This document shows, piece after piece, positions 9,613 to 34,728 of a stretch of 64,000 nucleotides of DNA; the stretch's first letter is position 1, and the number at the start of each line of letters is the position of its first letter. The stretch lies in contig NZ_CP034450.1 of assembly GCF_003952505.1 (NCBI RefSeq), forward strand, positions 6,221,001 through 6,285,000. The letters are read 5' to 3'. Below the pieces are notes generated by a model that was not told the DNA's origin, did no database searches, and worked only from the letters and a program-made list of their open reading frames with translations. Position numbers and translations under genes: made by a program. The DNA is from Mesorhizobium sp. M4B.F.Ca.ET.058.02.1.1. GTDB taxonomy: Bacteria > Pseudomonadota > Alphaproteobacteria > Rhizobiales > Rhizobiaceae.

Positions 9613-10827
9613 ATGACCCAACACGCAGAAAACGCCCGAATTCTCATGTACAGCCACGACACGTTCGGGCTCGGCCACCTGCAGCGCTGCCGCACTATCG
9701 CGCATTCGCTTGTCGAGAATTTCCACGGACTTCAGGTGCTTATCATTTCGGGTGCAACGATCGCTGGCGCATTCGACTACCGCGCCCGTGTCGACTTCGT
9801 GAAGATCCCCAGCGTCATCAAGTTGCGCAATGGCGAATACACCTCGCTGGAAAAGGATATCGATCTGCATGAGACGCTAAGGATGCGCCAGTCGATTATC
9901 CGCCACACGGCCGAGACATTCCGGCCGGATATCTTCATCGTCGACAAGGAACCGCTCGGCCTGCGTGGAGAGATTGAGGACACGCTGTCCTACCTCAAGA
10001 CGCGGGGCACCACGCTCGTTCTCGGCCTGCGCGAGGTGATGGATGCGCCGCATCTGCTCGAAGCGGAGTGGGCACGCAACGATGTGATGCGCAAGATAGG
10101 CCTATTCTACGACAAGGTCTGGGCCTATGGTCCGCCGGATTTCTACGATCCGTTGACGGGCTTGGATGTGCCGCCGGCAGTCAGGGCAAAGATGAGGTTC
10201 GTCGGTTTCCTGCAACGGAGCCTGCCGCGGAATGAGTTGCCCGGCCACAGGCCCGAGGGCGACTATATCCTCGTTACCACCGGTGGCGGCGGTGACGGCG
10301 CCGAACTGATCCACGACGTCATCGATGCCTATCAGCAGGATCCACGATTGCAGCACAGGGCGCTGATCGTGCTTGGGCCTTACATGCCAGCGCGCAAGCG
10401 CAACAAGCTGCTCAGGAAGGGGGCCAAGATCCCCTACATCAAGATCATCGAGTTCGACAACCGCATGGAAGACCTGATTGCCGGCGCCAAGGCGGTCGTG
10501 GCAATGGGCGGCTACAACACCTATTGCGAGATATTGTCTTTCGACAAGCCGGCGCTGATCGTGCCGCGCGTCGAGCCTCGGGAGGAACAACTGATCCGCG
10601 CTCGGCGCGCAGCCGAACTCGGCCTCATCGAGATGCTTTTGCCGGAAGAAGCCAAGGATTCCCAGCGGTTTGCCGATGCACTGGTGATGCTGCCAGACCG
10701 GCCCCGCCCATCACAGAGCAATCCGCATCTGACGCTGGAAGGGCTGCCTCATATCTCCGAAATCGTTGCGGAACTGCTCGACCGGCGGGCCGGCCATCAC
10801 CTTTCGGTCATCGAAGGACTGAACTGA
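9613..10827 (+). CDS. GT-B fold glycosyltransferase, MurG/GT28-like
   Basis: A cytosolic glycosyltransferase of 404 residues, first of three overlapping transferase genes. The N-terminal Rossmann-like domain begins ILMYSHDTFGLGHLQRCRTIA, the GHL-x-R pattern of MurG-like enzymes. The C-terminal domain has VTTGGGGDGAELI and VAMGGYNTYCEIL, which form the nucleotide-sugar pocket in this fold. The frame extends upstream to 9466, but the ATG at 9613 places the fold at the N-terminus and fits the homologous third gene (12070-13221). The next gene begins 1 nt after its stop. The acceptor is unknown; the neighbours suggest a polysaccharide or a modified lipid. Confidence 0.85.
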   Translation: MTQHAENARILMYSHDTFGLGHLQRCRTIAHSLVENFHGLQVLIISGATIAGAFDYRARVDFVKIPSVIKLRNGEYTSLEKDIDLHETLRMRQSIIRHTAETFRPDIFIVDKEPLGLRGEIEDTLSYLKTRGTTLVLGLREVMDAPHLLEAEWARNDVMRKIGLFYDKVWAYGPPDFYDPLTGLDVPPAVRAKMRFVGFLQRSLPRNELPGHRPEGDYILVTTGGGGDGAELIHDVIDAYQQDPRLQHRALIVLGPYMPARKRNKLLRKGAKIPYIKIIEFDNRMEDLIAGAKAVVAMGGYNTYCEILSFDKPALIVPRVEPREEQLIRARRAAELGLIEMLLPEEAKDSQRFADALVMLPDRPRPSQSNPHLTLEGLPHISEIVAELLDRRAGHHLSVIEGLN

Positions 10828-10828
10828 G

Positions 10829-12073
10829 TTGCAACGTCGCAAGATCGTCGTGGTTCTGAAGGGCTATCCGCGGCTGTCGGAAACCTTCATCGCGCAGGAA
10901 CTGCTTGGTCTCGAGCGTGCGGGATTCGACCTAGTGATCGTCGCGCTCAGGCGGCCGACCGATGCAAAACGCCACCCCGTGCATGATGAGATCAAAGCGC
11001 CCGTCCATTATTTGCCAGAATATCTGCATGACGAGCCGCTGCGCGTCGTTCGCGCGCTGATTGCTTGTCTGCCGCGGCCGGGCTTCTGGCGCGCACTTAG
11101 ATCGCTGGCTAGCGATATCCCCCGCGACTTTACGCGCAATCGCGTGCGCCGCTTCGGGCAGGCACTCGTGCTGGCGGCCGAATGGCCGCAAGACGCGGGA
11201 TGGTTGCATGCACATTTCGTGCACACGCCGGCGTCGGTGACGCGCTATGCCAGCCTGCTTCGTGGCCTGCCCTGGAGTTGCTCGGCCCATGCCAAGGACA
11301 TCTGGACTTCGGCGGACTGGGATCTGGCCGGCAAGCTTTCCTCGGCGCGTTGGACGGTAACCTGCACGAAAACCGGCTTCGACCGCCTGAAGGAGCTCGC
11401 CAACGGCAACTCGTCCGTGCATCTGAGCTATCATGGGCTCGACCTTGATCGCTTCGGCAGCTTTGGCGAGGCGCGAAAACAGCATGACGGCTCAGCGCCG
11501 GGCGAACCGGTTGTCGTTCTGAGTGTCGGGCGCGCAGTCGAAAAGAAAGGTTACGATACCTTGCTGGAGGCCCTTGCCCTTCTGCCCGCGGATTTGGCGT
11601 GGCGTTTCGAGCATATCGGCGGCGGCGAGGAACTGGAACGGCTCAAGGCGCTGGCGCGAAAGCTCGGCCTGGAGGGTCGCGTCTCCTGGAAAGGCGCGCT
11701 TGCGCAGAAGGAGGTGCTGGAACACTACCGAAGCGCCGACATTTTCGCCCTGGCCTGCAGGATTACTGCAAATGGTGACCGGGACGGTCTGCCGAATGTT
11801 CTGGTGGAGGCGGCCAGCCAGCGGCTTGCCTGCGTGTCGACCGATATTTCCGGCGTGCCGGAGCTTATATCGCCGGACGAAACCGGTCTGCTGGTGCCGA
11901 CGGAACACCCTATTGCCTTGGCACAGGCGCTGGAGCGTCTGATTCGTGATCCCTTGCTGCGCGCCCGCCTCGGCGAGGCCGCTGAGGGGCGCGTGCGAAG
12001 CAATTTCGATCATATGGCAAGCATCGGACAGCTCAAGCAACTGTTCCAGCAGGAGTGGCAGGCTGCCGAATGA
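10829..12073 (+). CDS. Glycosyltransferase family 4-like protein
   Basis: A GT-B glycosyltransferase of 414 residues, starting at a TTG 1 nt after the previous stop. It opens with IVVVLKGYPRLSETFIAQELL, typical of the exopolysaccharide GT4 enzymes that begin with YPxLSETFI. The C-terminal half has VVLSVGRAVEKKGYDTLLEA (donor-binding Lys), then DGLPNVLVEAASQRLACVST in the place of the ExxxxxxxE motif; the first Glu is replaced (DGLPNVLVEA), as in many family members. It ends in an ATGA overlap with the next transferase gene. It probably adds one sugar to the same glycan as its neighbours. Confidence 0.88.
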   Translation: MQRRKIVVVLKGYPRLSETFIAQELLGLERAGFDLVIVALRRPTDAKRHPVHDEIKAPVHYLPEYLHDEPLRVVRALIACLPRPGFWRALRSLASDIPRDFTRNRVRRFGQALVLAAEWPQDAGWLHAHFVHTPASVTRYASLLRGLPWSCSAHAKDIWTSADWDLAGKLSSARWTVTCTKTGFDRLKELANGNSSVHLSYHGLDLDRFGSFGEARKQHDGSAPGEPVVVLSVGRAVEKKGYDTLLEALALLPADLAWRFEHIGGGEELERLKALARKLGLEGRVSWKGALAQKEVLEHYRSADIFALACRITANGDRDGLPNVLVEAASQRLACVSTDISGVPELISPDETGLLVPTEHPIALAQALERLIRDPLLRARLGEAAEGRVRSNFDHMASIGQLKQLFQQEWQAAE

Positions 12074-13221
12074 AGCGGCTGCGCGCCTTCTTCTATGTCC
12101 AGCACCTGCTCGGCATCGGCCATCTCGCGCGCGCCAGCCGCATCGCGGCGGCTTTGGCCGATGACGGGTTTGACGTAACCGTCGTGACCGGCGGAGCGCC
12201 GATCGCGGGGTTTCCGGGACCGGGGGTAAAATCTGTGCCCCTGCCAACTGTCACCTCCGGTGATGAAGGATTTTCAGGGTTGGTCGACCTGCAGGGCAAA
12301 CCCATCGACGATGATTTCAAGAAGTGGCGCTCAGAGATGCTGCTGCAGGCATTCCGGGATTGCAGGCCTGATATCGTCATTATCGAGGCGTTTCCATTTG
12401 GACGCCGGCAGATGCGTTTCGAACTCTTGCCGCTGATCGAGGCCATCGAAGCGACGTCGCCCAGACCGCTGCTGGCGACGTCCGTCCGCGATATCCTTCA
12501 GGAGCGCGTCAAGCCGGGCCGAAACGAGGAAACGGTCGATCTCATCAACAGGCATTTCGACCTTGTCATGATCCACGGCGACCCGGCTTTCGCAACCATC
12601 GACAGGACATTTCCACTGGCTGGGGCGATCACAGCCGAGGTCACCTACACGGGGCTCGTTGCCGCGCCGCCACCGCCCGCGGCCTCCGAGCGCTTCGACG
12701 TTCTGGTGTCGGTTGGCGGCGGCGCTGCCGGAAAACACCTGGTCAGCTCCGCCATCGCCGCCGCTAGGAATGCCAACAACGCTTGGAAATGGTGTTTGAT
12801 CACCGGCCCAAACCTACCGAAAGACGAATTTGACGCGATCGCGCGCGATGCCACGCCGGGTCTGTCCATCTTCCGGTTCCGCGAGGATTTCGCCAGCCTG
12901 CTAACCGGCGCCCGCCTGTCAGTTTCGCAGGCGGGTTACAACACGGTCTGCGATGTCCTGCGCGCGGGTTGTCGCTCCCTGCTCGTTCCATTTGCAGCTG
13001 GCGCGGAAACCGAACAAACGGTTCGCGCCCTGATGCTCGAAGAACTCGGTCTTGCAACGGTGCTGATGGAAAAGGACCTGTCGCCTGAAGGTCTGGCGCA
13101 AGCGATCGAACAGGCGCTTGTGGGACCGACGCCACCCGGGCATCGTCTCGATCTGGAAGGGGCGCGTCACTCGGCGCAAATCCTGCGCGAGCGGTATCGA
13201 ACCTGGTCCGTAAGATCCTAA
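12070..13221 (+). CDS. GT-B fold glycosyltransferase, MurG/GT28-like (second copy)
   Basis: A 383-residue GT-B transferase that resembles the gene at 9613-10827. It opens FFYVQHLLGIGHLARASRIAA and carries VSVGGGAAGKHLV and VSQAGYNTVCDVLRAG near the C-terminus. The start is the ATG at 12070 inside an ATGA overlap with the GT4 gene; a frame opening 15 nt earlier is less likely. It shares few identical positions with the first copy, so the pair is old or the acceptors differ. It is the last gene of the three-gene unit and faces the methyltransferase-like gene 37 nt away. Confidence 0.85.
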   Translation: MKRLRAFFYVQHLLGIGHLARASRIAAALADDGFDVTVVTGGAPIAGFPGPGVKSVPLPTVTSGDEGFSGLVDLQGKPIDDDFKKWRSEMLLQAFRDCRPDIVIIEAFPFGRRQMRFELLPLIEAIEATSPRPLLATSVRDILQERVKPGRNEETVDLINRHFDLVMIHGDPAFATIDRTFPLAGAITAEVTYTGLVAAPPPPAASERFDVLVSVGGGAAGKHLVSSAIAAARNANNAWKWCLITGPNLPKDEFDAIARDATPGLSIFRFREDFASLLTGARLSVSQAGYNTVCDVLRAGCRSLLVPFAAGAETEQTVRALMLEELGLATVLMEKDLSPEGLAQAIEQALVGPTPPGHRLDLEGARHSAQILRERYRTWSVRS

Positions 13222-13258
13222 CGCGGGTCGCGCCTGGATCAGATTCGCGCAACGCGCT

Positions 13259-13933
13259 TCAAACAGTTCCAATCAGCATGAAGCGCGTATAGTTCTTTGT
13301 CGGCAACTCGCCGGAAAACCTGATCTCCCGCAGCGCCGCCATGGCTTCGAAGGCTGCCAGTGAAGCCACGCAGTTGATGTGCGTCGGCTCGCTGAAATAG
13401 TCGTTCGATTGCAGAAGCACAGTCGTGCCCCGCGGAAGCAGAGCAAGCCAGGCGCTGAGATCGGCTATGTGTTCGCAGCTTGTATTGACAACCAGGTCAG
13501 GTTGCCCGGCCGCATAGTCGAGTGCGTACATATCGTCCGTCAGCGCCCGGAACCGATCGCCGGCTTCCCGGTTGAGGGTCCGGGCGACCGGCGCGACTTC
13601 GGGATCGATGTCGATGCTATCGACCGCCGCGATGTCGAAGCGGGCATCGTTGAAAAGCATTGCCGGCAATACGCCGTACCATCCGCCCAGCACCCATATG
13701 CGCCCGAACCGGCCGCTGCAACTTTCGAACAGCCTGTCGAGCGCCCACATCTTGCAGGCGACCTGCTTGTGGTTGAAGGCATTGGCGATGTCGGCCTGCG
13801 GATGCTTGGCTATGACGCGCGCCAGCCCTGCAACGAGAGGGTGCTTGACATAGGCGGCAATTCCCCGCGTGAGGTCCAGGGCCTGTTCGTGCCCGTCCGT
13901 GCCGGCATTGCGTGGTTGCGTGATATCCATCAT
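13259..13933 (-). CDS. Class I SAM-dependent methyltransferase-like protein
   Basis: A protein of about 224 residues with a methyltransferase-like Rossmann region: RIWVLGGWYGVLPAML in the position of motif I, AAVDSIDIDPEVAPVARTL with an acidic end of beta-2, and PDLVVNTSCEHIADL as motif IV. The glycine loop differs from the usual GxGxG, so catalysis is not certain. The frame opens at 13966, but the ATG pair at 13933/13930 (MMDITQPRN) looks more natural. It is transcribed towards the glycosyltransferase operon and divergently from the ABC exporter-like gene at 14084. It may modify the glycan or its precursor; no specific substrate can be named. Confidence 0.65.
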   Translation of the reverse strand: MMDITQPRNAGTDGHEQALDLTRGIAAYVKHPLVAGLARVIAKHPQADIANAFNHKQVACKMWALDRLFESCSGRFGRIWVLGGWYGVLPAMLFNDARFDIAAVDSIDIDPEVAPVARTLNREAGDRFRALTDDMYALDYAAGQPDLVVNTSCEHIADLSAWLALLPRGTTVLLQSNDYFSEPTHINCVASLAAFEAMAALREIRFSGELPTKNYTRFMLIGTV

Positions 13934-14083
13934 ATTCGCCTTGTATGTTGGGATTTCGGGCGACACAACGCAATCTTGCCTCCGCCTCGCAGGCTTTGAA
14001 CGTGTCGCCAGCGCTGATTGCCGATGCGCCGTTCACCAGCAGATGCTTTTACTTTGCTTTAGACCGAAGGTTCACAGTCGCAT

Positions 14084-16798
14084 ATGGAACCCAGCCTAGC
14101 CCGCTATATCTGGAGGCACACCAAGAAGCAGCAGATATGGATATTGCTGATCGTTCTGCTGTCGATGATCCCGTATTTCATGTCCTTCGACCTGCCGAAG
14201 CTGATCGTCAACGGCCCGATCCAGGGCAAAGGTTTCGAGCAACCGGGAGCCACCCAGCCATTCATGAGACTGCACTATGACCTGCCGTTCATTGGCGAGG
14301 TCCAGTTGTTCTCCGGCTTTCAGCTCGACCGCACGGCAACGCTGCTTGCCCTCAGCGTCGTGTTCCTGTTGCTGGTCGTCATCAACGGCTTGTTCAAACT
14401 CTACATCAACACCTACAAGGGCCGCCTCGGCGAACGCATGCTGCGGCGTATCCGCTTCGATCTGGTCGATCGAGTGCTGCGGTTTCCGCCGTTTTACTTC
14501 AAACGGGTGAAATCCGCCGAAGTGGCGACCATGGTGAAGGACGAGGTGGAGCCGCTGGGCGGCTTCATCGGCGACGCCTTCCTGCAGCCGGTGCTGCTCG
14601 GCGGCCAGGCGCTGACGGCCATGCTGTTCATCATGGTCCAGAATTTCTGGCTCGGAATGATAGCGGTCGTGATCGTGGTGATCCAGATCGTGCTGATCCC
14701 GCGAATGCGGCGGCGGCTGATCGTGCTCGGTCGCGAACGGCAGCTGACGGCGCGCGCGCTTTCGGGCCGGGTTGGCGAAATCGTCGACGGCATCGGCGCG
14801 GTTCACGTCCACGACACGTCAAACTACGAGCGCGCCGACATAGCTGCCCGGCTCGGGCTCATCTTCAAGATCCGCTTCGATCTTTACCAGTGGAAATTCA
14901 TGGTAAAGTTCCTCAACAATTTTCTCGCGCAGCTGACGCCCTTCCTGTTCTACATGATCGGCGGGTATCTGGTCATCGAGGGGCGGCTGGACGTCGGCCA
15001 GCTCGTGGCCGTGATCGGCGCCTACAAGGACCTGCCCGGACCGATGAAGGAACTGATCGACTGGGATCAGGCGCGGCAGGATGTCCAGGTCAAATATCAG
15101 CAGGTGGTCGAACAGTTCACCGTCGACGGTGTCATTGCGCCGACAATCGGGGCATTGACGATCGAAGCCCCCGGTCCGATGACCGACCCGCTGTCGGCGA
15201 TCGGTCTGTCGATAGCGGACGATGGCGGTGCATTGCTCCTCGACCGTATCTCCGTCCAGGTCAAGCCGGGTGAAACGGTGGCGCTGGTCAGTACCGCAAC
15301 AGGTGGAGCGGAGGCGCTTGCAGAAGCCTTCGCGCGCCTGAACCGGCCGAAAGGCGGCAAGGTCGCTTCGGGCGCCCACGACCTGCTTGAACTCCCCGAA
15401 GCAGTGACCGGCCGGCGCATGTCCTATGCCTCGTCGGATGTTTTCCTGTTCCAGGCAAGCCTCCGCGACAACCTGCTCTACGGGTTGAAGCATGCGCCGC
15501 TGACATCGGTGACTTATGACGGTGCTGCGGCAGACCAGCGCCGCTGGAACATCCACGAGGCGCGCCGGTCGGGCAATCCGGATCATGATATCCAAAGCGA
15601 CTGGATCGACTACGCTTCCGCCGGCGCTACCGGCCCGCACGACCTCTTTGAAGCCGTGCGCCGGGTGCTCGACGCGGTTGTTCTGTCGCGCGACATTCTG
15701 GATCTTGGCTTGCGCTCTTCGGCCGACCTGACGCGTCACACGGAGCTTGCCAGGCGAATCGTCGAACTGCGTGCGGCGCTGCGAACGCGGCTGGAACACG
15801 AAGGGCTGAGCGGACTGGTGGTTCCGTTCGAACCCGGCGCCTACAACAAGGAAGCAACGATCGGCCAAAACCTGCTCTTCGGCGCTGCCGCCGGCCCCGA
15901 ACTGGCCGACAGGGCTCTGGCGGCCAATCCCTATTTTGCTTCTGTGCTCAGGCAAGCCGGCCTCGACCGCACGCTCTACGAAATGGGCATGGAGATCGCG
16001 GACCAGGCGATCGAGCTGTTTGCCGACCTGCCGCCCGATCACCAGTTCTTCCAGCAGCTCGCCTTCATGAGCGCCGAGGAGATACCCGCTTACGAAACCT
16101 TGCTGCAACGGCTCAAGAACCGTGCCTACGAGGCGGTTTCAGAGAACGATCGCGCCATGATCGTCACCTTGAGCTTTGCCTATATCGAGCCCCGGCACCG
16201 CTTCGGCCTGCTGAGCGACGAACTGATGAGCAAGATCGTCGCTGCTCGCAACGGGTTCTATGAAAACCTGCCGCCCGAGCTGCAAAACGCGGTCGAACGG
16301 TATGATCCTGCCAAATACATTGCCGCGGCTACTGTCATGGACAATGTCCTGTTCGGGCGCGTGGGCAACAACCATCCCGACGCACCGGACCGCATACGCT
16401 CCATCGTCTATGCCATTCTTGACGAGCTGGGGCTTTATGCCGAAGTTCTGGATGTCGGTCTGGACTTCAACGTCGGCTCCGGCGGCAGGCGGCTGACCGG
16501 TGGACAGCGACAGAAGCTCGATGTTGCCCGCGCCCTGCTCAAGCGTCCCGATTTTCTCATTCTCAACCGGCCGCTGTCGGCGCTCGACCAGCGCATGCAG
16601 GATAAGGTGCTGCAAAACGTGCTCGAGGAGGCCAGACGCGACGGCCATTCGCCGGCAATTGTGTGGGTCGTGACGAATCCGGCAATGGGGATGATGTTCG
16701 ATCGCGTTGTCGTCTTCGACTCGGGCCAATTGGTGGAAGACGGAACACACGAGACACTTTTGGCAGAGAGCGGTATCTTTAAGGAATTGCTATCATAG
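14084..16798 (+). CDS. ABC exporter-like protein with interrupted, degenerate nucleotide-binding domain
   Basis: A 904-residue protein. Residues ~20-330 look like an ABC exporter membrane domain, including VDRVLRFPPFYFKRVKSAEV. A nucleotide-binding domain begins near 375 (LLLDRISVQVKPGETVALVS), but the Walker A site reads STATGGAEAL and lacks the P-loop Lys. After ASLRDNLLYG (~459) a ~290-residue insertion follows that contains two further copies of that motif, ATIGQNLLFG (~591) and ATVMDNVLFG (~749). The signature LTGGQRQKLDVARAL then appears, and Walker B ends LILNRPLSALD, where NR replaces the usual Asp-Glu. ATP hydrolysis at this site therefore looks lost. The cyclic-nucleotide-binding gene follows on the same strand. 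Export of the product of the nearby glycosyltransferases is an inference. Confidence 0.75.
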   Translation: MEPSLARYIWRHTKKQQIWILLIVLLSMIPYFMSFDLPKLIVNGPIQGKGFEQPGATQPFMRLHYDLPFIGEVQLFSGFQLDRTATLLALSVVFLLLVVINGLFKLYINTYKGRLGERMLRRIRFDLVDRVLRFPPFYFKRVKSAEVATMVKDEVEPLGGFIGDAFLQPVLLGGQALTAMLFIMVQNFWLGMIAVVIVVIQIVLIPRMRRRLIVLGRERQLTARALSGRVGEIVDGIGAVHVHDTSNYERADIAARLGLIFKIRFDLYQWKFMVKFLNNFLAQLTPFLFYMIGGYLVIEGRLDVGQLVAVIGAYKDLPGPMKELIDWDQARQDVQVKYQQVVEQFTVDGVIAPTIGALTIEAPGPMTDPLSAIGLSIADDGGALLLDRISVQVKPGETVALVSTATGGAEALAEAFARLNRPKGGKVASGAHDLLELPEAVTGRRMSYASSDVFLFQASLRDNLLYGLKHAPLTSVTYDGAAADQRRWNIHEARRSGNPDHDIQSDWIDYASAGATGPHDLFEAVRRVLDAVVLSRDILDLGLRSSADLTRHTELARRIVELRAALRTRLEHEGLSGLVVPFEPGAYNKEATIGQNLLFGAAAGPELADRALAANPYFASVLRQAGLDRTLYEMGMEIADQAIELFADLPPDHQFFQQLAFMSAEEIPAYETLLQRLKNRAYEAVSENDRAMIVTLSFAYIEPRHRFGLLSDELMSKIVAARNGFYENLPPELQNAVERYDPAKYIAAATVMDNVLFGRVGNNHPDAPDRIRSIVYAILDELGLYAEVLDVGLDFNVGSGGRRLTGGQRQKLDVARALLKRPDFLILNRPLSALDQRMQDKVLQNVLEEARRDGHSPAIVWVVTNPAMGMMFDRVVVFDSGQLVEDGTHETLLAESGIFKELLS

Positions 16799-16936: not shown

Positions 16937-16985
16937 GGTGTCGGTTGTTCTAGTCTCGCAGACGTGAATGGGAAGGTTCGCGACA

Positions 16986-17435
16986 ATGCTGCTCAAGGAT
17001 GAGGTTGGAATGCTGCAACGCGTTCCCTTGTTCTCTGGCATAGAGCCGACAAAGCTCAAGCTGCTTGCGTTCACATCCGATCGCGTGAGCTACAGCGCCG
17101 GGCAGATCCTTTTCCGGCAGGGCGATGAGGGCGACGCCGCCTATGTCATCCTTTCAGGCAGGGCGGATATTCTGGTCGATTCCGACAACGGACCGATAAA
17201 AGTTGCCGAACTGCTGCCAAATTCGATCGTTGGCGAGATCGCCATATTGTGCAACAGCTCCCGCACGGCCACCGTCAGAGCTGCCAGTCCGGTGGAAGCC
17301 TTGAGAATTCGCAAGGATCATTTCCTGAGGCTTATGAAGGAGTTCCCGGAAATGACCATCGAGATGGTTCGGGTTCTTGCCGATCGCCTGAGCCATACGA
17401 CCGCGGATCTGATCGATGCACGAAGCGCCAAATAA
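16986..17435 (+). CDS. Cyclic nucleotide-binding domain protein
   Basis: A 149-residue protein that is almost entirely one CRP-type cyclic-nucleotide-binding domain, with no DNA-binding or enzymatic part. The fold starts at LQRVPLFSGIEPTKLKLLA, continues through FRQGDEGDAAYVILSGRADI, and has the phosphate-binding cassette GEIAILCNSSRTATVRA with its conserved Glu and Arg. It should bind cAMP or cGMP. The ATG at 16986 is preferred over 16968 because GGAAGG lies 9 nt upstream. It stands after the ABC exporter-like gene and before the metallo-hydrolase, so it may act as a small receptor subunit for one of them. This is inference from position. Confidence 0.88.
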   Translation: MLLKDEVGMLQRVPLFSGIEPTKLKLLAFTSDRVSYSAGQILFRQGDEGDAAYVILSGRADILVDSDNGPIKVAELLPNSIVGEIAILCNSSRTATVRAASPVEALRIRKDHFLRLMKEFPEMTIEMVRVLADRLSHTTADLIDARSAK

Positions 17436-17569: not shown

Positions 17570-18424
17570 ATGGACGACGACGTTTTCCTGGTCAGGTTTT
17601 GGGGCGTGCGCGGCAGCATTTCGGTATCGGGGCCAGAATTCTCTCGCTATGGCGGCAACACAAACTGCATTGAGATGCGATGCGGTAAGCATACGCTTCT
17701 GTTCGACGCGGGCTCTGGCTTGCGGCCTGCCGGCTGGGCGCTTCGGGCGTCGGGCGTGACCGATACCGACCTGTTTTTCACCCATTGCCATTACGATCAC
17801 ATCATCGGGCTGCCGGCTTTTAAGCCGATCTATGACCGGAGCGTCAAAATCAGGCTCTGGTCCGGGCATCTTGCAGGACGCATGACGACGCGGCAGATGG
17901 TAGATGAGTTCATGCGGCCGCCTTGGTTTCCGGTGAGACTGGACGTCTGCAAGGCAAGCCTCGACTACCGCGATTTCGTATCCGGAGACGTGCTTCGGCC
18001 GCGCCAAGGGGTGGTGATCCGAACCGGCAGTCTCACCCATCCCGGTGGCTGCATCGGCTACCGGGTCGAATGGGGTGGCCGCGTCGTTGCGGTGATCACA
18101 GACACTGAGCACGAGCCGGGCAAACTCGATCAGGCGGTGCTCGGCCTGATCGAAGATGCCGACCTCGTCATTTACGATTGCACCTACACCGAGGAGGAAA
18201 TGGAGCGCTATCGCGGCAACGGGCACTCGACATGGCAACAGGGCGTCAAGCTCTGTGAGGCCGCCGGCGCGCGGGGGCTTGCGCTGTTTCACCACGATCC
18301 GTCGCGCACCGACGATGAGTTGGACGAGATGGAGAAATTGGCCAAAGACAGGTTTGCCGGCGCGTTTGCCGCCCGGGATGGCCAGAGGCTCAAATTTCCA
18401 GTCTCATTGCGGAAAAAGCGCTGA
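17570..18424 (+). CDS. MBL-fold metallo-hydrolase (PhnP/COG1235-like)
   Basis: A 284-residue metallo-beta-lactamase-fold hydrolase. It begins VRFWGVRGSISVSG and has YGGNTNCIEM, the metal motif THCHYDHI, a later His in SLTHPGGCIGYR, the Asp in VITDTEH, and a final His in LALFHHDPSRTDDEL. Related enzymes cut cyclic phosphodiesters (PhnP) or RNA. The ATG at 17570 has AAGGG 6 nt upstream; the frame opens earlier at 17528. It lies 134 nt after the cyclic-nucleotide-binding gene, so breakdown of a cyclic nucleotide is a reasonable guess, but the sequence does not prove the substrate. Confidence 0.82.
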   Translation: MDDDVFLVRFWGVRGSISVSGPEFSRYGGNTNCIEMRCGKHTLLFDAGSGLRPAGWALRASGVTDTDLFFTHCHYDHIIGLPAFKPIYDRSVKIRLWSGHLAGRMTTRQMVDEFMRPPWFPVRLDVCKASLDYRDFVSGDVLRPRQGVVIRTGSLTHPGGCIGYRVEWGGRVVAVITDTEHEPGKLDQAVLGLIEDADLVIYDCTYTEEEMERYRGNGHSTWQQGVKLCEAAGARGLALFHHDPSRTDDELDEMEKLAKDRFAGAFAARDGQRLKFPVSLRKKR

Positions 18425-25365: not shown

Positions 25366-27260
25366 TCAGCCGGCGCACCGTCCTTGGGCTCATGGCTTCG
25401 GCATTTCTGCCGAATACGTCAAGCGCCGGCGATCTGGAGCCGGAATTTCTTCAGCCGCGGCTGCAGGCCGGGGCGCTGCCGGCACTCGCCGAACGTCTGC
25501 CGAAGCGCCCGCGCGCGTTGAATCTCGCTGCGATCGGCCGGCAGCCCGGCCAGTATGGCGGCACGCTGCGCACGATCATCGGCAGCCAGAAAGATATCCG
25601 GCTGATGACGATCTATGGGTATGCTCGCCTGGTCGGCTATGACGAAAAGCTCAACCTGCAACCCGACATTCTCGAAAGTTTCGACGTAGCGGATGATCGC
25701 GTCTTCACTTTCAAGATACGGGAAGGGCATAAATGGTCTGACGGTGGCACGCTGACGCCGGAGGATTTTCGCTATTGTTGGGAAGATGTCTGGCTGAACG
25801 ATGAGCTTTCGCAAGGCGGGCTCGCCCCAGCCCTGCTGGCTGACGGCAAGCCGCCGCGCTTCGACATCGTCGATCCGTTGACGGTCCGCTATAGTTGGGA
25901 TGCGCCCAATCCCGACTTCCTGCCCAAGCTCGCTGCTGCTTCGCCGCTATCGCTTGTTCTGCCGGCCGCCTATCTCAAGCAGTTCCACAAGAAATATCAG
26001 GATCCATTCCGGCTCGCCGGCCTGATGAAGGAGAACCGGGCCAAGAAATGGACGCTCCTGCATATCCGCATGTCGCGGCAGTATCGCCCGGAGAACCCGG
26101 ATCTGCCGACGCTCGATCCCTGGCAGAACCGGACCAAGCCGCCGGCCGAACAGTTCGTCTTCGAGCGGAACCCGTTCTTTCATCGAATAGACGAGAATGG
26201 CCGGCAACTACCCTATGTTGACCGCATCGTCATGAATGTCAGCTCGTCGGCGATCATTTCCGCCAAGACCGGTGCGGGCGAGAGCGACCTGCAAAGCATG
26301 GGAATTGACTTCGCCGACTACGCCTTCCTGAAGGACGCGGAGAAGCGGTACCCGGTGAAGATGCATCTCTGGAAACGCACACAGGGTTCGCGGCTGGCGC
26401 TGCTACCCAATCTGAATTGCGCCGACCAGGTGTGGCGTGGCCTTCTTCGCGACGTTCGCGTGCGCCGCGCACTTTCGCTCGCTGTGGACAGGCGCGAGAT
26501 CAACATGGCCGTGTTCTACGGATTGGCGCAGGAAAGTGCCGATACGGTCCTGACGGAGAGCCCGCTCTACCGGCCGGAATTTGCCAAAGCCTGGGTCGCC
26601 CATGACCCCGACCAGGCCAATGCCCTGCTCGACGAGGTCGGGCTTCAGACGCGTGACGATGACGGCCTGCGGATACTTCCCGATGGACGCCCGGCGCAGA
26701 TCATCGTGGAAACGGCCGGCGAAAGCACGCTGGAAACCGACGCACTCGAACTCATCACCGATCACTGGCGCAAGATCGGCATTGCGCTGTTTATCCGGAC
26801 TTCGCAGCGCGACATCTTCCGCAGCCGCGCGCTTGGCGGCCAGATCATGATGTCGATGTGGTCGGGCATCGACAATGGCGTGCCGACCGCCGACATGAAC
26901 CCGTACCAGCTGGCCCCCACCATCGACGACCAGCTGCAATGGCCGCTCTGGGGTGCTCACTACTTGTCTCACGGCACGCTCGGCGAGGCGCCCGATCTTG
27001 CGCCTGTGGTCGAGTTGATGGCTTTGCTCAAGCGCTGGAATGCATCGACCGAAGCCACGGAGCGCGCCGAAATCTGGAATTCAATGCTGTCGATCTACAC
27101 CGATCAGGTGTTCTCGATCGGCACGGTGAACGGAACGCATCAGCCGGTTCTGGCATCCTCGCGGCTGCGCAATCTGCCTGAAAAGGCGCTCTACGGCTAC
27201 GACCCGACAGCCTATTTCGGTGTCTACATGCCGGATACATTCTGGCTTGGAGAGACCTGA
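25362..27260 (+). CDS. Extracellular solute-binding protein, family 5
   Basis: The periplasmic binding protein of the importer, ~632 residues. It starts at TTG 25362 overlapping the ATPase stop (TTGA). The N-terminus SRRTVLGLMASAFLP reads as a twin-arginine-type signal peptide ending near SSAGD. The mature part carries family-5 features such as YGYARLVGYDEKLNLQPDIL, FTFKIREGHKWSDGGTLTPE, and VRRALSLAVDRREINMAVF. Family 5 members bind peptides, but some bind nickel, opines or oligosaccharides. A sugar-derived ligand is possible given the glycan genes nearby. Confidence 0.9.
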   Translation: MISRRTVLGLMASAFLPNTSSAGDLEPEFLQPRLQAGALPALAERLPKRPRALNLAAIGRQPGQYGGTLRTIIGSQKDIRLMTIYGYARLVGYDEKLNLQPDILESFDVADDRVFTFKIREGHKWSDGGTLTPEDFRYCWEDVWLNDELSQGGLAPALLADGKPPRFDIVDPLTVRYSWDAPNPDFLPKLAAASPLSLVLPAAYLKQFHKKYQDPFRLAGLMKENRAKKWTLLHIRMSRQYRPENPDLPTLDPWQNRTKPPAEQFVFERNPFFHRIDENGRQLPYVDRIVMNVSSSAIISAKTGAGESDLQSMGIDFADYAFLKDAEKRYPVKMHLWKRTQGSRLALLPNLNCADQVWRGLLRDVRVRRALSLAVDRREINMAVFYGLAQESADTVLTESPLYRPEFAKAWVAHDPDQANALLDEVGLQTRDDDGLRILPDGRPAQIIVETAGESTLETDALELITDHWRKIGIALFIRTSQRDIFRSRALGGQIMMSMWSGIDNGVPTADMNPYQLAPTIDDQLQWPLWGAHYLSHGTLGEAPDLAPVVELMALLKRWNASTEATERAEIWNSMLSIYTDQVFSIGTVNGTHQPVLASSRLRNLPEKALYGYDPTAYFGVYMPDTFWLGET

Positions 27261-27262: not shown

Positions 27263-28261
27263 GTGCTTCGATATATTGTCTGGCGCATCGCCGTGATGGT
27301 TCCAACGCTGCTGGTCATATCGGCGCTGGTGTTCACGATCATCGAACTTCCCCCTGGCGACTATTTCGACAGCTATGTTGCCGAGCTTCGGGCTCAGGGC
27401 GAAGCGGTGGATTCCGATCGCATCGAGATGATGCGCAAGGACTATGGTTTCGACAAGCCGCCGATCATTCGCTACTTCTACTGGGTCGGCGGGATGCTGC
27501 ACGGCGATTTCGGCTATTCCTTCGAATATGAGCTGCCAGTTCGCGACGTCGTCGGGGAGCGAATGTGGCTGACCGTGCTGGTTTCCTTCGTCACGATCGT
27601 CTTCACCTGGCTCATCGCCTTTCCGATCGGCATGTACTCCGCCACGCATCAATACAGCTGGGGCGACTACGGCCTGACCTTCTTCGGCCTTCTCGGCCTT
27701 GCCATTCCGAACTTCATGCTGGCGCTGATCCTGATGTATTTCGCCAATATCTGGTTCGGCACGTCCATCGGCCATCTCATGGACCAGCAATATCTCAGCG
27801 AGCCGATGAGCTGGGCCAAGGCGAAGTCGATCCTCGCCCATCTTTGGATCCCGGTTTTGATCATCGGCACCGGGGGCACGGCAAGCATGATCCGGCGGCT
27901 GCGCGCCAACCTGCTGGATGAGCTACACAAGCAATATGTCGTGACCGCGCGCGCCAAAGGCCTTCATCCCTTTAAGGCGCTGGTCAAATATCCGCTGCGC
28001 ATGGCGCTTAATTTCTTCATTTCGGACATCGGCTCCATCCTGCCGGCCATTATCTCCGGCGCTGAAATCACGGCGATCGTGCTGTCTTTGGAAACGACCG
28101 GGCCGATGCTGATCAAGGCGCTGCAGAGCCAGGACATGTATCTGGCGGGGTCGTTCCTGATGTTCCTCGCTTTCCTGACGGTCATCGGAGTCCTGATTTC
28201 CGACCTGGCGCTGGCGCTGCTTGATCCACGAATTCGTTTGCAGGGCGGCAGCACCAAATGA
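27263..28261 (+). CDS. ABC importer permease (DppB/YejB-like)
   Basis: A 332-residue inner-membrane permease with about six membrane helices, starting at GTG 27263 with GGAGAG just upstream, 2 nt after the binding-protein stop. Its family motifs include KDYGFDKPPIIRYFYW, LLDELHKQYVVTARAKGLHP (the cytoplasmic EAA-type loop that contacts the ATPase), and the C-terminal ALLDPRIRL. It overlaps the next permease gene by ATGA. It pairs with the second permease to form the channel of the importer. Confidence 0.92.
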   Translation: MLRYIVWRIAVMVPTLLVISALVFTIIELPPGDYFDSYVAELRAQGEAVDSDRIEMMRKDYGFDKPPIIRYFYWVGGMLHGDFGYSFEYELPVRDVVGERMWLTVLVSFVTIVFTWLIAFPIGMYSATHQYSWGDYGLTFFGLLGLAIPNFMLALILMYFANIWFGTSIGHLMDQQYLSEPMSWAKAKSILAHLWIPVLIIGTGGTASMIRRLRANLLDELHKQYVVTARAKGLHPFKALVKYPLRMALNFFISDIGSILPAIISGAEITAIVLSLETTGPMLIKALQSQDMYLAGSFLMFLAFLTVIGVLISDLALALLDPRIRLQGGSTK

Positions 28262-29439: not shown

Positions 29440-29629
29440 CATCGCTGTCCCGCCGCGCGCCGGGCCCGCCGGCTGCACCGGCAAGACCCCTGTTGGCAGC
29501 CTGTTCGGTTGTTGCGGTGTTGATCGTTCGCCTCTATATGCGGCGAGGCTCGATCGGGGGTTTAACCCGTGAACCGTTATGGTCGCGGGCATTGCCGATC
29601 ACTTGAGCCGGTTCAGGACACAGACGCAT

Positions 29630-30109
29630 ATGTCTCGCCTCGAGAGCTTCATCCGCAGGCTGACCGCACAGCGCGACATTCTCGATCAAGTCTGCGCGGG
29701 GGTGGCGAAGATCGAGGGCCCCGTGCTCGAACTCGGCCTCGGCAACGGCCGGACGTTCCATCATCTGCGCGAGCGCCTGCCCGGACGCCGGATCGTGGCA
29801 TTCGACCGCGCGCTCGCCGCGCACGCCAGCTCAATCCCCGAAGCTGAAAACCTTGTGCTCGGCGAAATACGCGAGACGGCGAACAGGTTCATTGGCATAG
29901 ACGCCGCCCTTGTTCATGCCGACATTGGCACCGGCTATGACGATCGCGATGCAGTGACCGCTACCTGGCTTCCCGATCTGACCGCGCGCCTGCTTCGCGT
30001 CGGCGGCATCGCGGTCAGCGGCACGCCGCTCGACCACCCGCAGTTGCAGCGCCTCTTGCCGCCGCCTTCGGTGCCCGCAGATCGTTATTTTATCTATAGG
30101 CGCGTGTAA
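29630..30109 (+). CDS. Small class I SAM-dependent methyltransferase
   Basis: A protein of about 159 residues with a clear motif I, VLELGLGNGRTFHHL, and VAFDRALAAH at the end of beta-2. It resembles the short rhizobial SAM-methyltransferase family (PF12692-like, from memory). ATG 29630 (MSRLESFIRRL) is preferred; a frame from 29579 adds 17 residues. Its stop lies 22 nt from the convergent stop of the cyclase gene. The substrate is unknown, and its size makes a small molecule likely. Confidence 0.78.
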   Translation: MSRLESFIRRLTAQRDILDQVCAGVAKIEGPVLELGLGNGRTFHHLRERLPGRRIVAFDRALAAHASSIPEAENLVLGEIRETANRFIGIDAALVHADIGTGYDDRDAVTATWLPDLTARLLRVGGIAVSGTPLDHPQLQRLLPPPSVPADRYFIYRRV

Positions 30110-30130
30110 GAGCCGGAACGACTCAGGTCT

Positions 30131-31546
30131 TCAAGGGATCGTATATACTGCTATCTCTCGCTCAATGCCGCGCAGCGAGACCTCGTGGGCTACGGGCGTC
30201 AGCGCGTTCCTGTGCAACAGGTCGGCGGTGAGATTGTCGTCGACCACCGCGCGAGTGGCGAAGATCGCCTGTGCGTTGGCAAGGTTCTGGACCCGCGACG
30301 CAATGTTGACCGTCTGGCCGAAATAATCCTGCCGCTCGTTCAAAGACACGGCGATGCAGGGGCCGGCATGGACGCCGATCTTGAGCAGCAAATCCTCGCG
30401 CCCGCTCGTGTCGTTGAGCGCACGCATCGCATCGCGCATCCTGAGGGCCGCGGCAATCGCACGATCGGGCGTCGCGAAGGTCGCCATAACCGCATCACCG
30501 ATCGTCTTCACCACCGCGCCGGCCTCCGCCGCCACGATCTCGTGCAGAATCTGGAAATGCGCGCGCACGAGATCGAAGGCCGCAAGGTCGCCCACCCGCT
30601 CGTAAAGCGCGGTCGATCCGCGCAGGTCGGTGAACAGGAAGGTCAGGCTGGTAATCTTCAGGCGCTGGTCGATGTCGAGTGTATCCGTGCGATAGAGATC
30701 GCGGAACGTCTGGTTGGTGAGCAGGCGCTTGGCGGTGAGGAAGGGCCGGCGTTTGCCCAGGAAATCATGCAATGCCTCGCCGGCGATGAAGACCGTCGGC
30801 AGCACGCGGGTTTCGGTCCTGTTTTCCAGCGAAATGCGCAACGGGCCAGGTTGCATCTCCAGCGTCTGGTTCTGGATATGGTCGCGGTCGAAGACTAAAG
30901 AGAGACTTCGGCGCTCCTTTGTTGGTTCGCCCTTCACGTCGATGAACTGCGCTGAATGGGTGACCGGCTCGAAGACGATAATGAATTCGGACGGAAGCTG
31001 TATGGGCAGAACCGCCTTTTCACCGGGCGCAAGTTCGATATCCTCCAGCGAGAACGCTTCCAGCTTTTTCGCGAAATCCTCATCCGGGACATCGACGCCG
31101 GACGCCCAGTAGATCTGGCGGAAATATTCCACCATCGGCAGTTCGTGTGGATTGTGGGCCGCAATCCTGCGTATGCGGGGACTGACGGTGAATGTCACCT
31201 CGACCATCTCGTCGAGGGTCGGCGAATAGCCCTGCGAGCACAGTGCGCAGCTGTATTCGTCCTTCTGAAGGGTTTTCAGCGTGGCGTTGGTGTCGAGCAC
31301 GCCGCCACAGCCGGGGCACAGGACATTCCAGGAAATGTCGAAGATGCCGACCCGCGCAGCATGGAGAAAGGCGCTTATGGCGCGCTCCTCGTCGAGGCCA
31401 TGCTTGCTGGCGAAGGCCAGCGTATTGATGCGGCAAAGTTCACGGTCCTCGCCCTCCGCGATGGTTCGCTTGATCGCTTCGATTGCCAGTGGATCGACAT
31501 CGGTCGATTGCCGCAGAAGCGAGAACAGATCCTGGGCTTCGTTCAT
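30131..31546 (-). CDS. Adenylate/guanylate cyclase with DUF5939-like, zinc-ribbon N-terminal region
   Basis: A 471-residue paralogue of the protein at 5023-6468. Here the N-terminal region keeps both zinc knuckles (LCPGCGGVL and SCALCSQG), about 25 residues apart, so it may bind zinc. The cyclase domain has FLFTDLRGSTALYERVGD, KTIGDAVMATF, and FGQTVNIASRVQNL, with all metal and transition-state residues. The frame opens at 31672, but ATG 31546 has GGAG 9 nt upstream and matches the paralogue better. Its activating signal is unknown. It should make cAMP or cGMP. Confidence 0.9.
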   Translation of the reverse strand: MNEAQDLFSLLRQSTDVDPLAIEAIKRTIAEGEDRELCRINTLAFASKHGLDEERAISAFLHAARVGIFDISWNVLCPGCGGVLDTNATLKTLQKDEYSCALCSQGYSPTLDEMVEVTFTVSPRIRRIAAHNPHELPMVEYFRQIYWASGVDVPDEDFAKKLEAFSLEDIELAPGEKAVLPIQLPSEFIIVFEPVTHSAQFIDVKGEPTKERRSLSLVFDRDHIQNQTLEMQPGPLRISLENRTETRVLPTVFIAGEALHDFLGKRRPFLTAKRLLTNQTFRDLYRTDTLDIDQRLKITSLTFLFTDLRGSTALYERVGDLAAFDLVRAHFQILHEIVAAEAGAVVKTIGDAVMATFATPDRAIAAALRMRDAMRALNDTSGREDLLLKIGVHAGPCIAVSLNERQDYFGQTVNIASRVQNLANAQAIFATRAVVDDNLTADLLHRNALTPVAHEVSLRGIEREIAVYTIP

Positions 31547-31750
31547 CGTGCAGGCTCCGGAAAATGCGCCCTCGAGGCGAGTTGACCGGACCGCGCTTTG
31601 GTCCGAGTGCCCCATTTTACGTCGAAACGGACCGTACGGCCATTCGAATAGATGAGCCTGGTGACAGTTCAATTCCCATTCGGCAGATTTTCACCGGCCG
31701 CAAGCGGCACTTTGATGGTATATAGGCATTCATCTTTGGGGCTCGCTCCC

Positions 31751-32575: not shown

Positions 32576-32635
32576 ATTGCAGAGACGGCTGGATTTTCAG
32601 GTGACGTCCGGTGCATCGTGCCCAGCCGATTACCA

Positions 32636-32736
32636 TAGAGCATTTCATCGTTCCAAAGGAAACGGCGAACTGCTCTATCTTTGTTCGGACGCAATTCCGG
32701 GCGGAAAACCGCTTACACTTTCCTGGAATTGCTCTA
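32636..32736. repeat. Palindromic intergenic repeat of rhizobial type
   Basis: A ~100-bp element with two hairpins in tandem: TAGAGCA (32636-32642) pairs with TGCTCTA (32671-32677), and AATTCC (32693-32698) pairs with GGAATT (32725-32730), ending in GCTCTAG. I remember near-identical elements between genes in many Mesorhizobium genomes; this was not checked by search. It ends 12 nt before the acetyltransferase start, so it may affect that messenger. Confidence 0.6.
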
Positions 32737-32748
32737 GCCGGGAACGCC

Positions 32749-33273: not shown

Positions 33274-33342
33274 GATCCGCTGTATGGTCTTAACTGTCTG
33301 GTCTCCCTTGGCGTTTGCACCGCAAGCGGCTAGACGGGACCA

Positions 33343-34728
33343 ATGACCGCCGTCTTTGATCCACCCCCTACGCCCCCGGCGGAAATTCTGGCGGTGCTTT
33401 CGCTGCTCTGCCCGGAAGTGGTGCGTGACATCGAGCAGAACTGGAATTCACAGGTTTCCGATTACGCCCGCCATCTGTGGCGGCCGGTGGCAAGGCCTGC
33501 ATCAGGCCCGGCGATCGCTGCCCGCTCGATCCTGCGCGAAGTCCTGCATCAGCGCCTCAGTGTGATTGTGCAGCCTGAGGAGATCGGCAAGGCCCTCGAA
33601 GAGTTCGAGCACAGACCGGTGATTCAGTCCGGCCTGCATTGCCTGCTTCTGATGGACCGGATCACCTTCGATGCCCTCCTGCTTGCCTGGCTCGGCGCGG
33701 TCGAAAGCGGGCTGTCGGCCTTCTTCGCTTTCATGGGAACGACGATGACCATGGAGACAATTGGCCGGGAGGGGCCGGGCTGGCTCGATGTCGGCGACGA
33801 CAAGGTCAACCTGTTTGGCATGGGCCGCCACAAACTGTGCCGCAAAAGCGCCTGCGCGGCCGGTCCCGTCTCCCTCAACAAGCGTGCGCTCGAAGCAGTC
33901 GGCGATGAAACCGATGCCAGCCGCTGGCTGGGCACGCTGCTTGCCAGCCAAAACAAGGTGTTTGGAACCGCTGCCGATGCGCTGACAGCCCTCAACGAGG
34001 ATCTGGTCACCAATTGGGATCGTTCCGGCATGGCCCTGCCGGTTTTCATCGATGATCGGCTCGCCGCGGTTGCTGTAGCGCGGCATCTGGAAGATGACGG
34101 CAGCCTTCTTTCCAAGCTGCTCATCGAGCCCGCAAGACGCCAGCGCCTCGAGCATGCCTTGCAAGAGGCCGCATCGGGACCATTCGGCAGATTCCTGCCC
34201 AATGCCACGGACTATTTCTGGGGTATCCGCGAGCAGCGAGTACGCAAGCTCGTGCTGAAGAACGGGCACCTGATCGAGCCTGACAGGCCGCATGGTCTTT
34301 CCATCCCGTTCGAGCGGCCGCAGCTTGGGCAGGCGCTGCTGGATGGCGTGCTGCTGCCGAACTTGTTCCTGATGTTCCTCGCCCTTGCCATATTGCCGCG
34401 GGTGCGGGTCGTGGGCGGCCTGAGGCAGATCGGCTATGTAGCGCTTTTCCACTCGATCCTGCTGGCTGCGCTAGACGAAAACGTGCCGCAAGAGCGCGAT
34501 CTGGCTGCGGAGCTGCAGGTACGGGAAAATGCCTGGGGCACTCGGGTCATTGATGAGAAGACCTCGGTCCGCGAGCAGCTTGCCGGCTTGCCGGAGGGGG
34601 CGCTCTTCCCGGACTTGCTTCGGCAATACCGATTGCGGACATTTGCCGAGACGACCGAAGACCTGAAACTGGTTCGTGAAAACGCCCGATGGCGCAAGAT
34701 CGGCCAGGCAGGAATCAAGGCGACCTGA
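33343..34728 (+). CDS. Hypothetical protein, 461 residues
   Basis: I do not recognise this protein. It opens MTAVFDPPPTPPAEI, is soluble for most of its length, and has one strongly hydrophobic stretch near 340-365 (LLPNLFLMFLALAILPRVRV). Two Cys residues lie in RKSACAAG. No known catalytic motif is seen. It begins with an ATG 69 nt after the acetyltransferase gene and may be in the same transcript. It points at the stop of the trifunctional gene. Codon use looks like that of the neighbours, which argues for a real gene. Confidence 0.7.
   Translation: MTAVFDPPPTPPAEILAVLSLLCPEVVRDIEQNWNSQVSDYARHLWRPVARPASGPAIAARSILREVLHQRLSVIVQPEEIGKALEEFEHRPVIQSGLHCLLLMDRITFDALLLAWLGAVESGLSAFFAFMGTTMTMETIGREGPGWLDVGDDKVNLFGMGRHKLCRKSACAAGPVSLNKRALEAVGDETDASRWLGTLLASQNKVFGTAADALTALNEDLVTNWDRSGMALPVFIDDRLAAVAVARHLEDDGSLLSKLLIEPARRQRLEHALQEAASGPFGRFLPNATDYFWGIREQRVRKLVLKNGHLIEPDRPHGLSIPFERPQLGQALLDGVLLPNLFLMFLALAILPRVRVVGGLRQIGYVALFHSILLAALDENVPQERDLAAELQVRENAWGTRVIDEKTSVREQLAGLPEGALFPDLLRQYRLRTFAETTEDLKLVRENARWRKIGQAGIKAT

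Follow-up and report, generated by a model that had tools for sequence, protein, structure and literature searches.

A candidate cyclic-nucleotide-controlled envelope-glycan locus with an ABC-exporter-derived pseudo-ATPase in Alphaproteobacteria

Background

Several described systems resemble parts of a locus that we analysed in Mesorhizobium sp. M4B.F.Ca.ET.058.02.1.1, in which glycosyltransferases and a saccharide-type importer are encoded with an ATP-binding cassette (ABC) exporter-like protein, here called ABC, and a stand-alone cyclic-nucleotide-binding protein, CNB. The locus lies in a stretch of 64,000 nucleotides (the window; positions 6,221,001 to 6,285,000 of NZ_CP034450.1) carried on a single-contig genome of 6.46 Mb. 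Type IV ABC exporters such as MsbA, TmrAB and the cyclic glucan transporter are similar to ABC in the transmembrane region and overall fold, but in ABC the ATPase site appears decayed family-wide and an insert seems to hold the helical region of the nucleotide-binding domain (NBD) three times. Proteins of family TIGR03896 (bacteriocin-type transport-associated protein) associate with ABC exporters and share the cyclic-nucleotide-binding domain. CNB scores 45 bits against this family, far below the cut-off of 161, and its partner is a predicted pseudo-ATPase found with glycosyltransferases. Membrane proteins of the SthK type are gated by cyclic nucleotides; CNB matches SthK in the Protein Data Bank (PDB) and in some species is fused behind a membrane domain, but that domain is of the ABC-exporter type and no ion channel.

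Two described systems of Sinorhizobium meliloti are also relevant. In cAMP-Clr control, a cyclic nucleotide governs genes for surface polysaccharides, part of which are located on pSymB (PMC5498481). Clr is a transcription regulator, whereas CNB (155 amino acids (aa), PF00027 as its only Pfam match) lacks the C-terminal DNA-binding helix-turn-helix of Crp/Fnr regulators; the published Clr-box has no match in the window, where 0.46 are expected. The second system was defined by Travin et al. 2023, who reported that nine genes between smb21252 and smb21271 are needed for an uncharacterised surface polysaccharide, the phazolicin-protecting polysaccharide (PPP), with a minimal inhibitory concentration of phazolicin of 0.18 ug/ml for smb21252 and smb21265 mutants, against 1.47 ug/ml (PMC10128002). 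According to the same paper, orthologues of PPP genes in Agrobacterium tumefaciens were recovered in a pyocyanin screen. Seven of the nine PPP genes are reported as upregulated during Myxococcus predation (PMC10315480). An orthologous gene set apparently occupies that place on pSymB.

An earlier note on this DNA, made from its letters alone, had proposed a linked system of glycan synthesis and export under cyclic-nucleotide control. The finding is wider than that note stated. Its core consists of ABC, CNB, four glycosyltransferases, a protein resembling deacetylases and an importer of the saccharide type, and much of this set is co-inherited over many Alphaproteobacteria. The locus is probably a genuine system, so far little studied, that makes or gates a cell-surface sugar. 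We lean, with a little more confidence than doubt, towards reading its glycan module and its ABC-CNB control module together as a cyclic-nucleotide-controlled, ATPase-independent envelope-glycan locus.

Co-inheritance of the glycan and ABC-CNB modules

We searched 289 alphaproteobacterial genomes, drawn evenly from the class and many of them drafts. ABC (14084..16798, plus strand; 904 aa, PF00664 and a partial PF00005) was found in 97 genomes and the GT28-like glycosyltransferase GTa (9613..10827, plus strand; PF04101; the open reading frame starts at 9466 and the ATG at 9613 agrees with homologues) in 93. The two occurred together in 91 genomes, ABC alone in six, GTa alone in two and neither in 190 (Fisher's exact p = 5e-65 over the 289 genomes, a value that ignores shared ancestry). 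Independent occurrence of the genes without a conserved neighbourhood, which the earlier note had named as contrary evidence, is not the pattern that we found. The solute-binding protein of the importer (SBP; 25248..27260, plus strand, start uncertain; SBP_bac_5, PF00496) was present in 91 genomes. It was found with ABC in 88, ABC was found without it in nine, SBP without ABC in three, and 189 genomes had neither. The importer, which the earlier note had regarded as merely interleaved with the block, is part of the conserved set. The control for co-inheritance was CYC2, a cyclase gene to the right of the importer (30131..31672, minus strand; DUF5939 and cyclase domains, PF19363 and PF00211), which was present in 5 of the 289 genomes.

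Nearer relatives gave a consistent picture. Among 37 Mesorhizobium genomes (including the window's own), ABC, GTa and the gene for an MBL-fold hydrolase (MBL; 17570..18424, plus strand; PF12706) were present in the identical 24 and absent from the identical 13. ABC was found in eight of 24 genomes from other families of the order, GTa in seven of those eight and in no others, and MBL in five of the eight; one genome had MBL but no ABC. A class-type ABC query matched 22 of 299 genomes drawn from across the phylum, and 21 of these belong to the class; the sole match outside it (G451:C67:160-1047) is partial and has 44% identity.

ABC and GTa lie within 12 kb of each other in 65 of the 91 genomes that have both, farther apart on the same contig in seven (39 kb to 1.2 Mb) and on other contigs in 19, where placement in draft genomes does not prove distance and some cases may be draft breaks. 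The two modules, the glycan module with its importer and the ABC-CNB module, are thus inherited together and are usually but not always linked.

We examined conserved neighbourhoods in two samples. The remaining core genes of the window are the GT4-type glycosyltransferase GTb (10829..12073, plus strand; PF00534), the MurG-like GT28 glycosyltransferase GTc (12055..13221, plus strand; PF04101), the divergent polysaccharide-deacetylase-like PDA (18426..19190, minus strand) with its paired glycosyltransferase GT4 (19187..20275, minus strand; PF00534 and PF13692), and, in the importer, a double ATPase (23470..25365, plus strand, start uncertain, the reading frame opening at 23197; two PF00005 stretches and oligo_HPY) and two permeases (27263..28261, PF00528; 28258..29439, PF00528 and PF12911; both plus strand). 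The rhizobial sample comprised the best 80 of 575 confirmed loci with up to 10 kb on each side and is biased towards close relatives. It contained CNB in 80 loci, GTa, GTb and GTc in 70 each, the importer ATPase in 64, MBL in 41, PDA and GT4 in 38 each, the accessory gene MTx in 34, the cyclase CYC1 in 26 and DUF3095 in 21. The class-wide sample comprised 60 loci from 58 genomes, picked from the 97 ABC carriers to spread over families, and contained CNB in 56, GTb in 42, GTa in 41, GT4 in 39, GTc in 37, the importer ATPase in 31, PDA in 30, the methyltransferase MT17 in 29, a CYC1-type cyclase in three and MBL in one. The counts for the importer ATPase are the least specific, such proteins being common.

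The arrangement reflects more than chance, because it recurs in other families in which the ABC protein has ~30-53% identity. In Rhizobium leguminosarum, the cyclase, importer, GTa, GTb, GTc, ABC and CNB all point in the same direction. An accidental or regional grouping of genes that have nothing to do with each other might be suspected, since further polysaccharide genes lie beyond the block in the window and some genes of the block are genus-level neighbours, but given the co-inheritance in 289 genomes, the adjacency of ABC and CNB in all 149 loci with both and their natural fusion (see below) we regard it as extremely improbable. Predicted open reading frames from 69 loci were also clustered; frequent further neighbours were a histidine phosphatase (29 loci) and, identified by eye, genes like exonuclease III (18), FtsK (14) and LolA (12). 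The recurrence of these neighbours suggests that the locus occupies an old chromosomal position.

CNB as the neighbour and fusion partner of ABC

CNB (16968..17435, plus strand, with 16968 or 16986 as the start) was detected in 149 of 153 ABC loci. These loci are not independent: many are closely related and three come from a single genome. In each of the 149, CNB follows ABC immediately and on the same strand, with a median of 79 bp between matches and none above 1 kb. The earlier note had suggested a search for co-occurrence of ABC, CNB and MBL. The ABC-CNB pairing was borne out in nearly all ABC loci, and MBL followed ABC within Mesorhizobium but not over the class.

The phosphate-binding cassette of CNB is conserved, with Gly in 149 of 149, Glu in 145, Arg in 149 and Ala in 145, and CNB would be expected to bind cAMP or cGMP. 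In 10 of the 153 loci, the ABC frame spans 1003-1103 aa and is long enough to include CNB. Fusion of the two was confirmed by alignment in locus L035 and by Pfam in Sulfitobacter; annotated genes of Azospirillum and Ruegeria match the fusion length, and the Ruegeria gene is named as cyclic nucleotide-binding. No other hint at an action of CNB on ABC is as strong as this natural fusion. One genome (G214) has three ABC copies (L170, L171 and L172), each with a frame of fusion length, and a single GTa match.

An exporter-derived membrane protein with a decayed ATPase site

We aligned the 153 ABC members, 152 of them distinct (L036 = L054), with canonical exporters of the window's own genome. Six such controls were chosen and the sixth was left out owing to a wrong reading frame. 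The window's ABC lacks the Walker A Lys and Ser/Thr, the Walker B Asp and Glu and the H-loop His, all five of which are kept in the five remaining controls, in agreement with the pseudo-ATPase reading of the earlier note. None of the 153 members retains all five residues together and 100 retain none. In active ABC proteins, the Walker A Ser/Thr and the Walker B Asp bind Mg. The former position is Glu in 94 members and Asp in 41, and the latter is Asn in 122. Among the 80 named rhizobial loci (the best 80 of 575 confirmed), none of the five residues is kept in any. Decay is graded, with the Walker A Lys kept in 37 of the 153 and the Walker B Glu in 33, mostly in non-rhizobial members. By alignment, therefore, the predicted ATPase site of this exporter-derived membrane protein is decayed family-wide. 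Listings name its relatives as ABC transporter, often "ATP-binding", or as hypothetical.

The degenerate Walker A lies at about aa 402-411, the signature at 804-808 and the degenerate Walker B at about 828, and between Q-loop and signature there is an insert. Repeats of the NBD helical region were placed at about aa 451-545, 584-636 and 735-795. Because hhalign pairs three stretches of the protein (aa 436-575, 576-735 and 728-830) with probabilities of 91.5, 90.0 and 97.4% (75.8, 84.7 and 98.1% for shorter stretches), we read the helical region as putatively present three times. An AlphaFold2 model of ABC had a mean pLDDT of 81.4 and a pTM of 0.75, with weak parts around residues 176-199 and 305-321. 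Foldseek matched the model to TmrAB chains with TMt of 0.59-0.65, which corresponds to an exporter fold; by E-value, P-glycoproteins ranked highest, with TMq of ~0.27.

Retention of this fold, together with the surviving Walker A Lys and Walker B Glu and a signature Gln kept in 142 of 153 members, would fit a genuine ATP-driven exporter of a glycan or glycolipid with an unorthodox nucleotide site that CNB merely tunes. We consider such an exporter unlikely, given the acidic residues that mostly replace the Walker A Ser/Thr, the Asn that mostly replaces the Walker B Asp, and the fact that all five residues together are found in none of the 153 members and not one of them in the rhizobial sample. 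Export powered by ATP hydrolysis of the ABC protein itself is likewise unlikely. Heterodimeric exporters with one degenerate site exist, and ABC could be the dead half of such a pair with its active half encoded elsewhere: TmrAB and 3qf4 are among the Foldseek matches of the model, and the window's genome encodes several canonical exporters. Another exporter-type transmembrane domain lies nearby in just 1 of the 153 loci, and ABC therefore has no linked partner. An unlinked partner would need to persist across the class, and the signature motif of ABC, which any partner would need, is also eroded. A dead half of this kind thus seems improbable to us, and a protein that works independently of ATP hydrolysis remains our preferred reading.

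The S. meliloti counterpart and PPP

In the orthologous stretch of S. meliloti pSymB, CYC1, a lyase gene, the importer, GTa, GTb, GTc, ABC and CNB are co-directional and MTx is on the opposite strand. Over 19.8 kb, the records of strains 1021 (L196) and 2011 (L120) differ at two single bases; CYC1 has one of these differences and ABC the other, and both genes are interrupted in the 1021 record. In the records of strains 2011 and Rm41, ABC is uninterrupted. SMb21257 is listed as a truncated adenylate cyclase (PMC12542648) and is likely CYC1, because the interruption of CYC1 in the 1021 record fits "truncated". If tags follow gene order, SMb21265 would be one of GTa, GTb and GTc, as these are the sole glycosyltransferases between CYC1 and CNB. 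This mapping draws on passages of PMC12542648 and PMC10128002, since the record carries no tags. On this basis, there is an apparent overlap between the S. meliloti locus and the PPP region (smb21252-smb21271), and a surface-glycan role for one glycosyltransferase of the locus is supported in S. meliloti by the data of others.

The gene order in Mesorhizobium differs from that of the PPP region, and MBL, DUF3095 and the GT4/PDA pair lie inside the Mesorhizobium block. The PPP passages of PMC10128002 make no mention of the ABC/CNB pair, of cyclic-nucleotide control of the locus or of conservation across the class. Our literature searches for the locus layout found no description, and the region's locus tags are absent from the main text of PMC7268258. 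As far as searches on the layout, the tags and the PPP name reach, the ABC/CNB pair is undescribed. The earlier note knew of no described system with this layout, a view to be qualified: we regard the locus as one for a surface polysaccharide that apparently is in part already known as PPP and that has an unusual control element.

Glycan enzymes, importer and the nature of the sugar

Of the deacetylase/GT4 pair named in the earlier note, GT4 is a glycosyltransferase by Pfam. PDA has no Pfam deacetylase match above cut-off (Polysacc_deac_2, 13.2 bits against 27.5, E 0.048); genes at the PDA position in relatives are annotated as "polysaccharide deacetylase family protein". GTa had no sequence relatives in the PDB at E 0.01. 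SBP matched the PDB entries 5ipw (E 2.1e-72; labelled oligopeptide-binding, putative), SPH1118 (E 5.9e-66) and AgpA (E 2.6e-27). The last two are saccharide binders, AgpA being the more distant from SBP, and SPH1118 is described as a pectin-binding protein (PMC9314435). Relatives add further hints: a nucleotide sugar dehydrogenase stands beside the locus, some loci contain a PF14099 polysaccharide lyase, and an annotated UDP-glucuronate epimerase and a histidine phosphatase also flank or lie in the locus. The dehydrogenase, lyase, epimerase and kinship of SBP point, with moderate confidence, to a uronate-bearing glycan.

The closeness of SBP to SPH1118, the lyase in some loci and the rhizobial arrangement, with CYC1 beside the importer or close to it, would also be expected if the locus mainly sensed and imported plant or algal uronides, with the cyclic nucleotide reporting uptake and the glycosyltransferases acting as downstream responders. 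SBP and GTa are no more than 12 kb apart in 62 of 88 genomes that have both; they are farther apart on the same contig in five (15.6 kb in the window's own genome) and on other contigs in 21. SBP and ABC are that close in 45 of 88, so that the importer is linked more to GTa than to ABC and sits with the glycosyltransferases. No sugar-catabolic genes were noted among the Pfam matches of the block, and the phenotype published in the PPP passages is envelope protection (PMC10128002). We therefore doubt that uptake is the main role, and favour a locus that makes or gates a surface glycan.

Cyclases, MBL and DUF3095 in rhizobia

CYC1 (21987..23327, plus strand; PF00211) encodes a class III nucleotidyl cyclase. 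Aligned by eye with PDB 2w01, it keeps the metal-binding Asp residues and the catalytic Asn and Arg, and has Ser at both positions that determine ATP/GTP specificity, which is neither the adenylyl nor the guanylyl pattern. Among the matches listed for both genes, all 19 plasmid records with CYC1 and ABC (from Mesorhizobium, Rhizobium, Sinorhizobium and Phyllobacterium) have CYC1 9-17 kb from ABC; these records come from the best 40 and 60 of 262-264 ABC records and the best 60 of 236 CYC1 records.

MBL was considered as a dedicated cyclic-nucleotide phosphodiesterase and rejected. It scored 36.2 bits against the phosphodiesterase family NF041851, for which the cut-off is 400, ELAC1/RNase Z entries rank first among its PDB matches, and it was near ABC in a single class-wide locus. 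It looks RNase Z-like from these matches and is found mainly in rhizobia and their order. The complete loop of making, sensing and perhaps destroying a cyclic nucleotide that the earlier note had envisaged is not supported, as MBL fails the phosphodiesterase family and neither MBL nor a CYC1-type cyclase is frequent near ABC across the class. Three loci from Agrobacterium, Rhizobium and Allorhizobium (L094, L104 and L106) have MBL, CYC1, ABC and CNB without matching glycosyltransferases within 10 kb, possibly a minimal signalling set.

The DUF3095 protein (20349..21527, plus strand; PF11294) is also encoded near the R. leguminosarum and Phyllobacterium loci. By eye, it contains the cyclase-like stretches ADIVGST and GGDG; no PDB sequence relative was found, the best match having only E 0.7.

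Further genes of the window

Every gene that the earlier note had named, from the glycosyltransferases to the two cyclases and the importer, was recovered at its place and with its domain (below threshold for the deacetylase) in a check of open reading frames and Pfam matches. The order is GTa, GTb, GTc, MTx (minus strand), ABC, CNB, MBL, PDA and GT4 (both minus strand), DUF3095, CYC1 and the four importer genes. MTx (13259..13966) is an accessory methyltransferase-like gene with PF13649 below cut-off. Downstream of the importer follow MT17 (29579..30109, plus strand; Methyltransf_17, PF12692), which is often near CNB elsewhere, CYC2, a gene without Pfam match, a GNAT gene and a gene for a 461-aa protein. 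CYC2, GNAT and the 461-aa protein, although beside the block in 8 of 8 Mesorhizobium loci examined, were rejected as core members and are genus-level neighbours. The linked system proposed in the earlier note is supported for the glycan enzymes, importer, ABC, CNB and, in rhizobia, CYC1, but loses CYC2.

The block borders other polysaccharide genes. On its left, acyltransferase, NAD-dependent epimerase and glycan-phosphotransferase-like genes were recognised by eye at 466-4688, followed by a further DUF5939-type cyclase (5023-6468, minus strand; 39% identity to CYC2) and an MscS-type mechanosensitive channel adjoining GTa (6596-8887, minus strand). Mechanosensitive channel genes are likewise near the glycosyltransferases of the Sulfitobacter locus. 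On the right, a 961-aa protein (34808-37693, minus strand) combines GT2, NodS-like methyltransferase and polysaccharide deacetylase domains. ARAGORN reported a tRNA with an odd four-base anticodon at 55688-55776 (minus strand), probably a false positive.

Discussion

Starting from the observed gene content, co-inheritance, adjacency, fusion, loss of ATPase residues and conserved cyclic-nucleotide cassette, we propose how the locus may work. GTa, GTb, GT4 and GTc, with the deacetylase-like PDA, would build a glycan, possibly with uronic acid, and the importer, whose SBP_bac_5 protein may belong to a saccharide-binding branch, would take up a related oligosaccharide, perhaps fragments of the glycan. 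The control module would consist of the ATPase-dead ABC-derived membrane protein and CNB, as neighbours or as one polypeptide, to which rhizobia would add the dedicated cyclase CYC1 and often MBL. A cyclic nucleotide would bind CNB; the enlarged pseudo-NBD would be the target of CNB, and the membrane-spanning part would change state with no need for ATP hydrolysis. This switch may gate the passage of a lipid-linked glycan or recruit the glycosyltransferases. Ligand binding, the CNB-ABC contact, gating, the identity of the sugar and the imported substrate are steps that we infer, and gating is the weakest of them. In its most specific form, the proposal is that an ABC exporter was turned into an ATP-independent, cyclic-nucleotide-gated device, in which a pseudo-NBD enlarged by triplication of its helical region docks CNB and ligand binding replaces ATP as the switch, opening a glycan path or assembling a glycosyltransferase complex; this version is tentative and we hold it with more doubt than confidence.

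Several observations weigh against our reading. CNB was not detected in 4 of the 153 ABC loci (L148, L153, L163 and L176), and in some ABC-CNB loci (e.g. L128, L134 and L161) the retrieved stretch contains no glycosyltransferases. Six class genomes contain ABC without GTa, and completeness is 97% or higher in four of these (G104, G229, G270 and G326). The Walker A Lys or the Walker B Glu is kept more often outside rhizobia. Moreover, CYC1-type cyclases are rare near ABC (3 of 60 class-wide loci), which bears on the source of the signal outside rhizobia. With regard to the sugar, the Azospirillum stretch contains no nucleotide sugar dehydrogenase, the dehydrogenases of the window's genome are only distant (36 and 28% identity), and that genome had no lyase match, an empty result that means little for that search. 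The Pfam matches of the block include no polymerase, flippase or outer-membrane exporter, and delivery to the surface is thus unexplained by the locus alone.

If the most specific form of the proposal is true, the ABC proteins would form a new class of ABC-derived, second-messenger-gated membrane proteins. The protein is present in about a third of the sampled alphaproteobacterial genomes and is often named "ATP-binding" despite its decayed ATPase residues. Should the ABC-CNB pair gate a surface glycan in response to a cyclic nucleotide, this signalling would in rhizobia reach the envelope directly and not through transcription, and the unexplained PPP region would gain a regulator. S. meliloti mutants of neighbouring genes already show a phenotype in the published PPP passages, which makes the idea directly testable in that organism.

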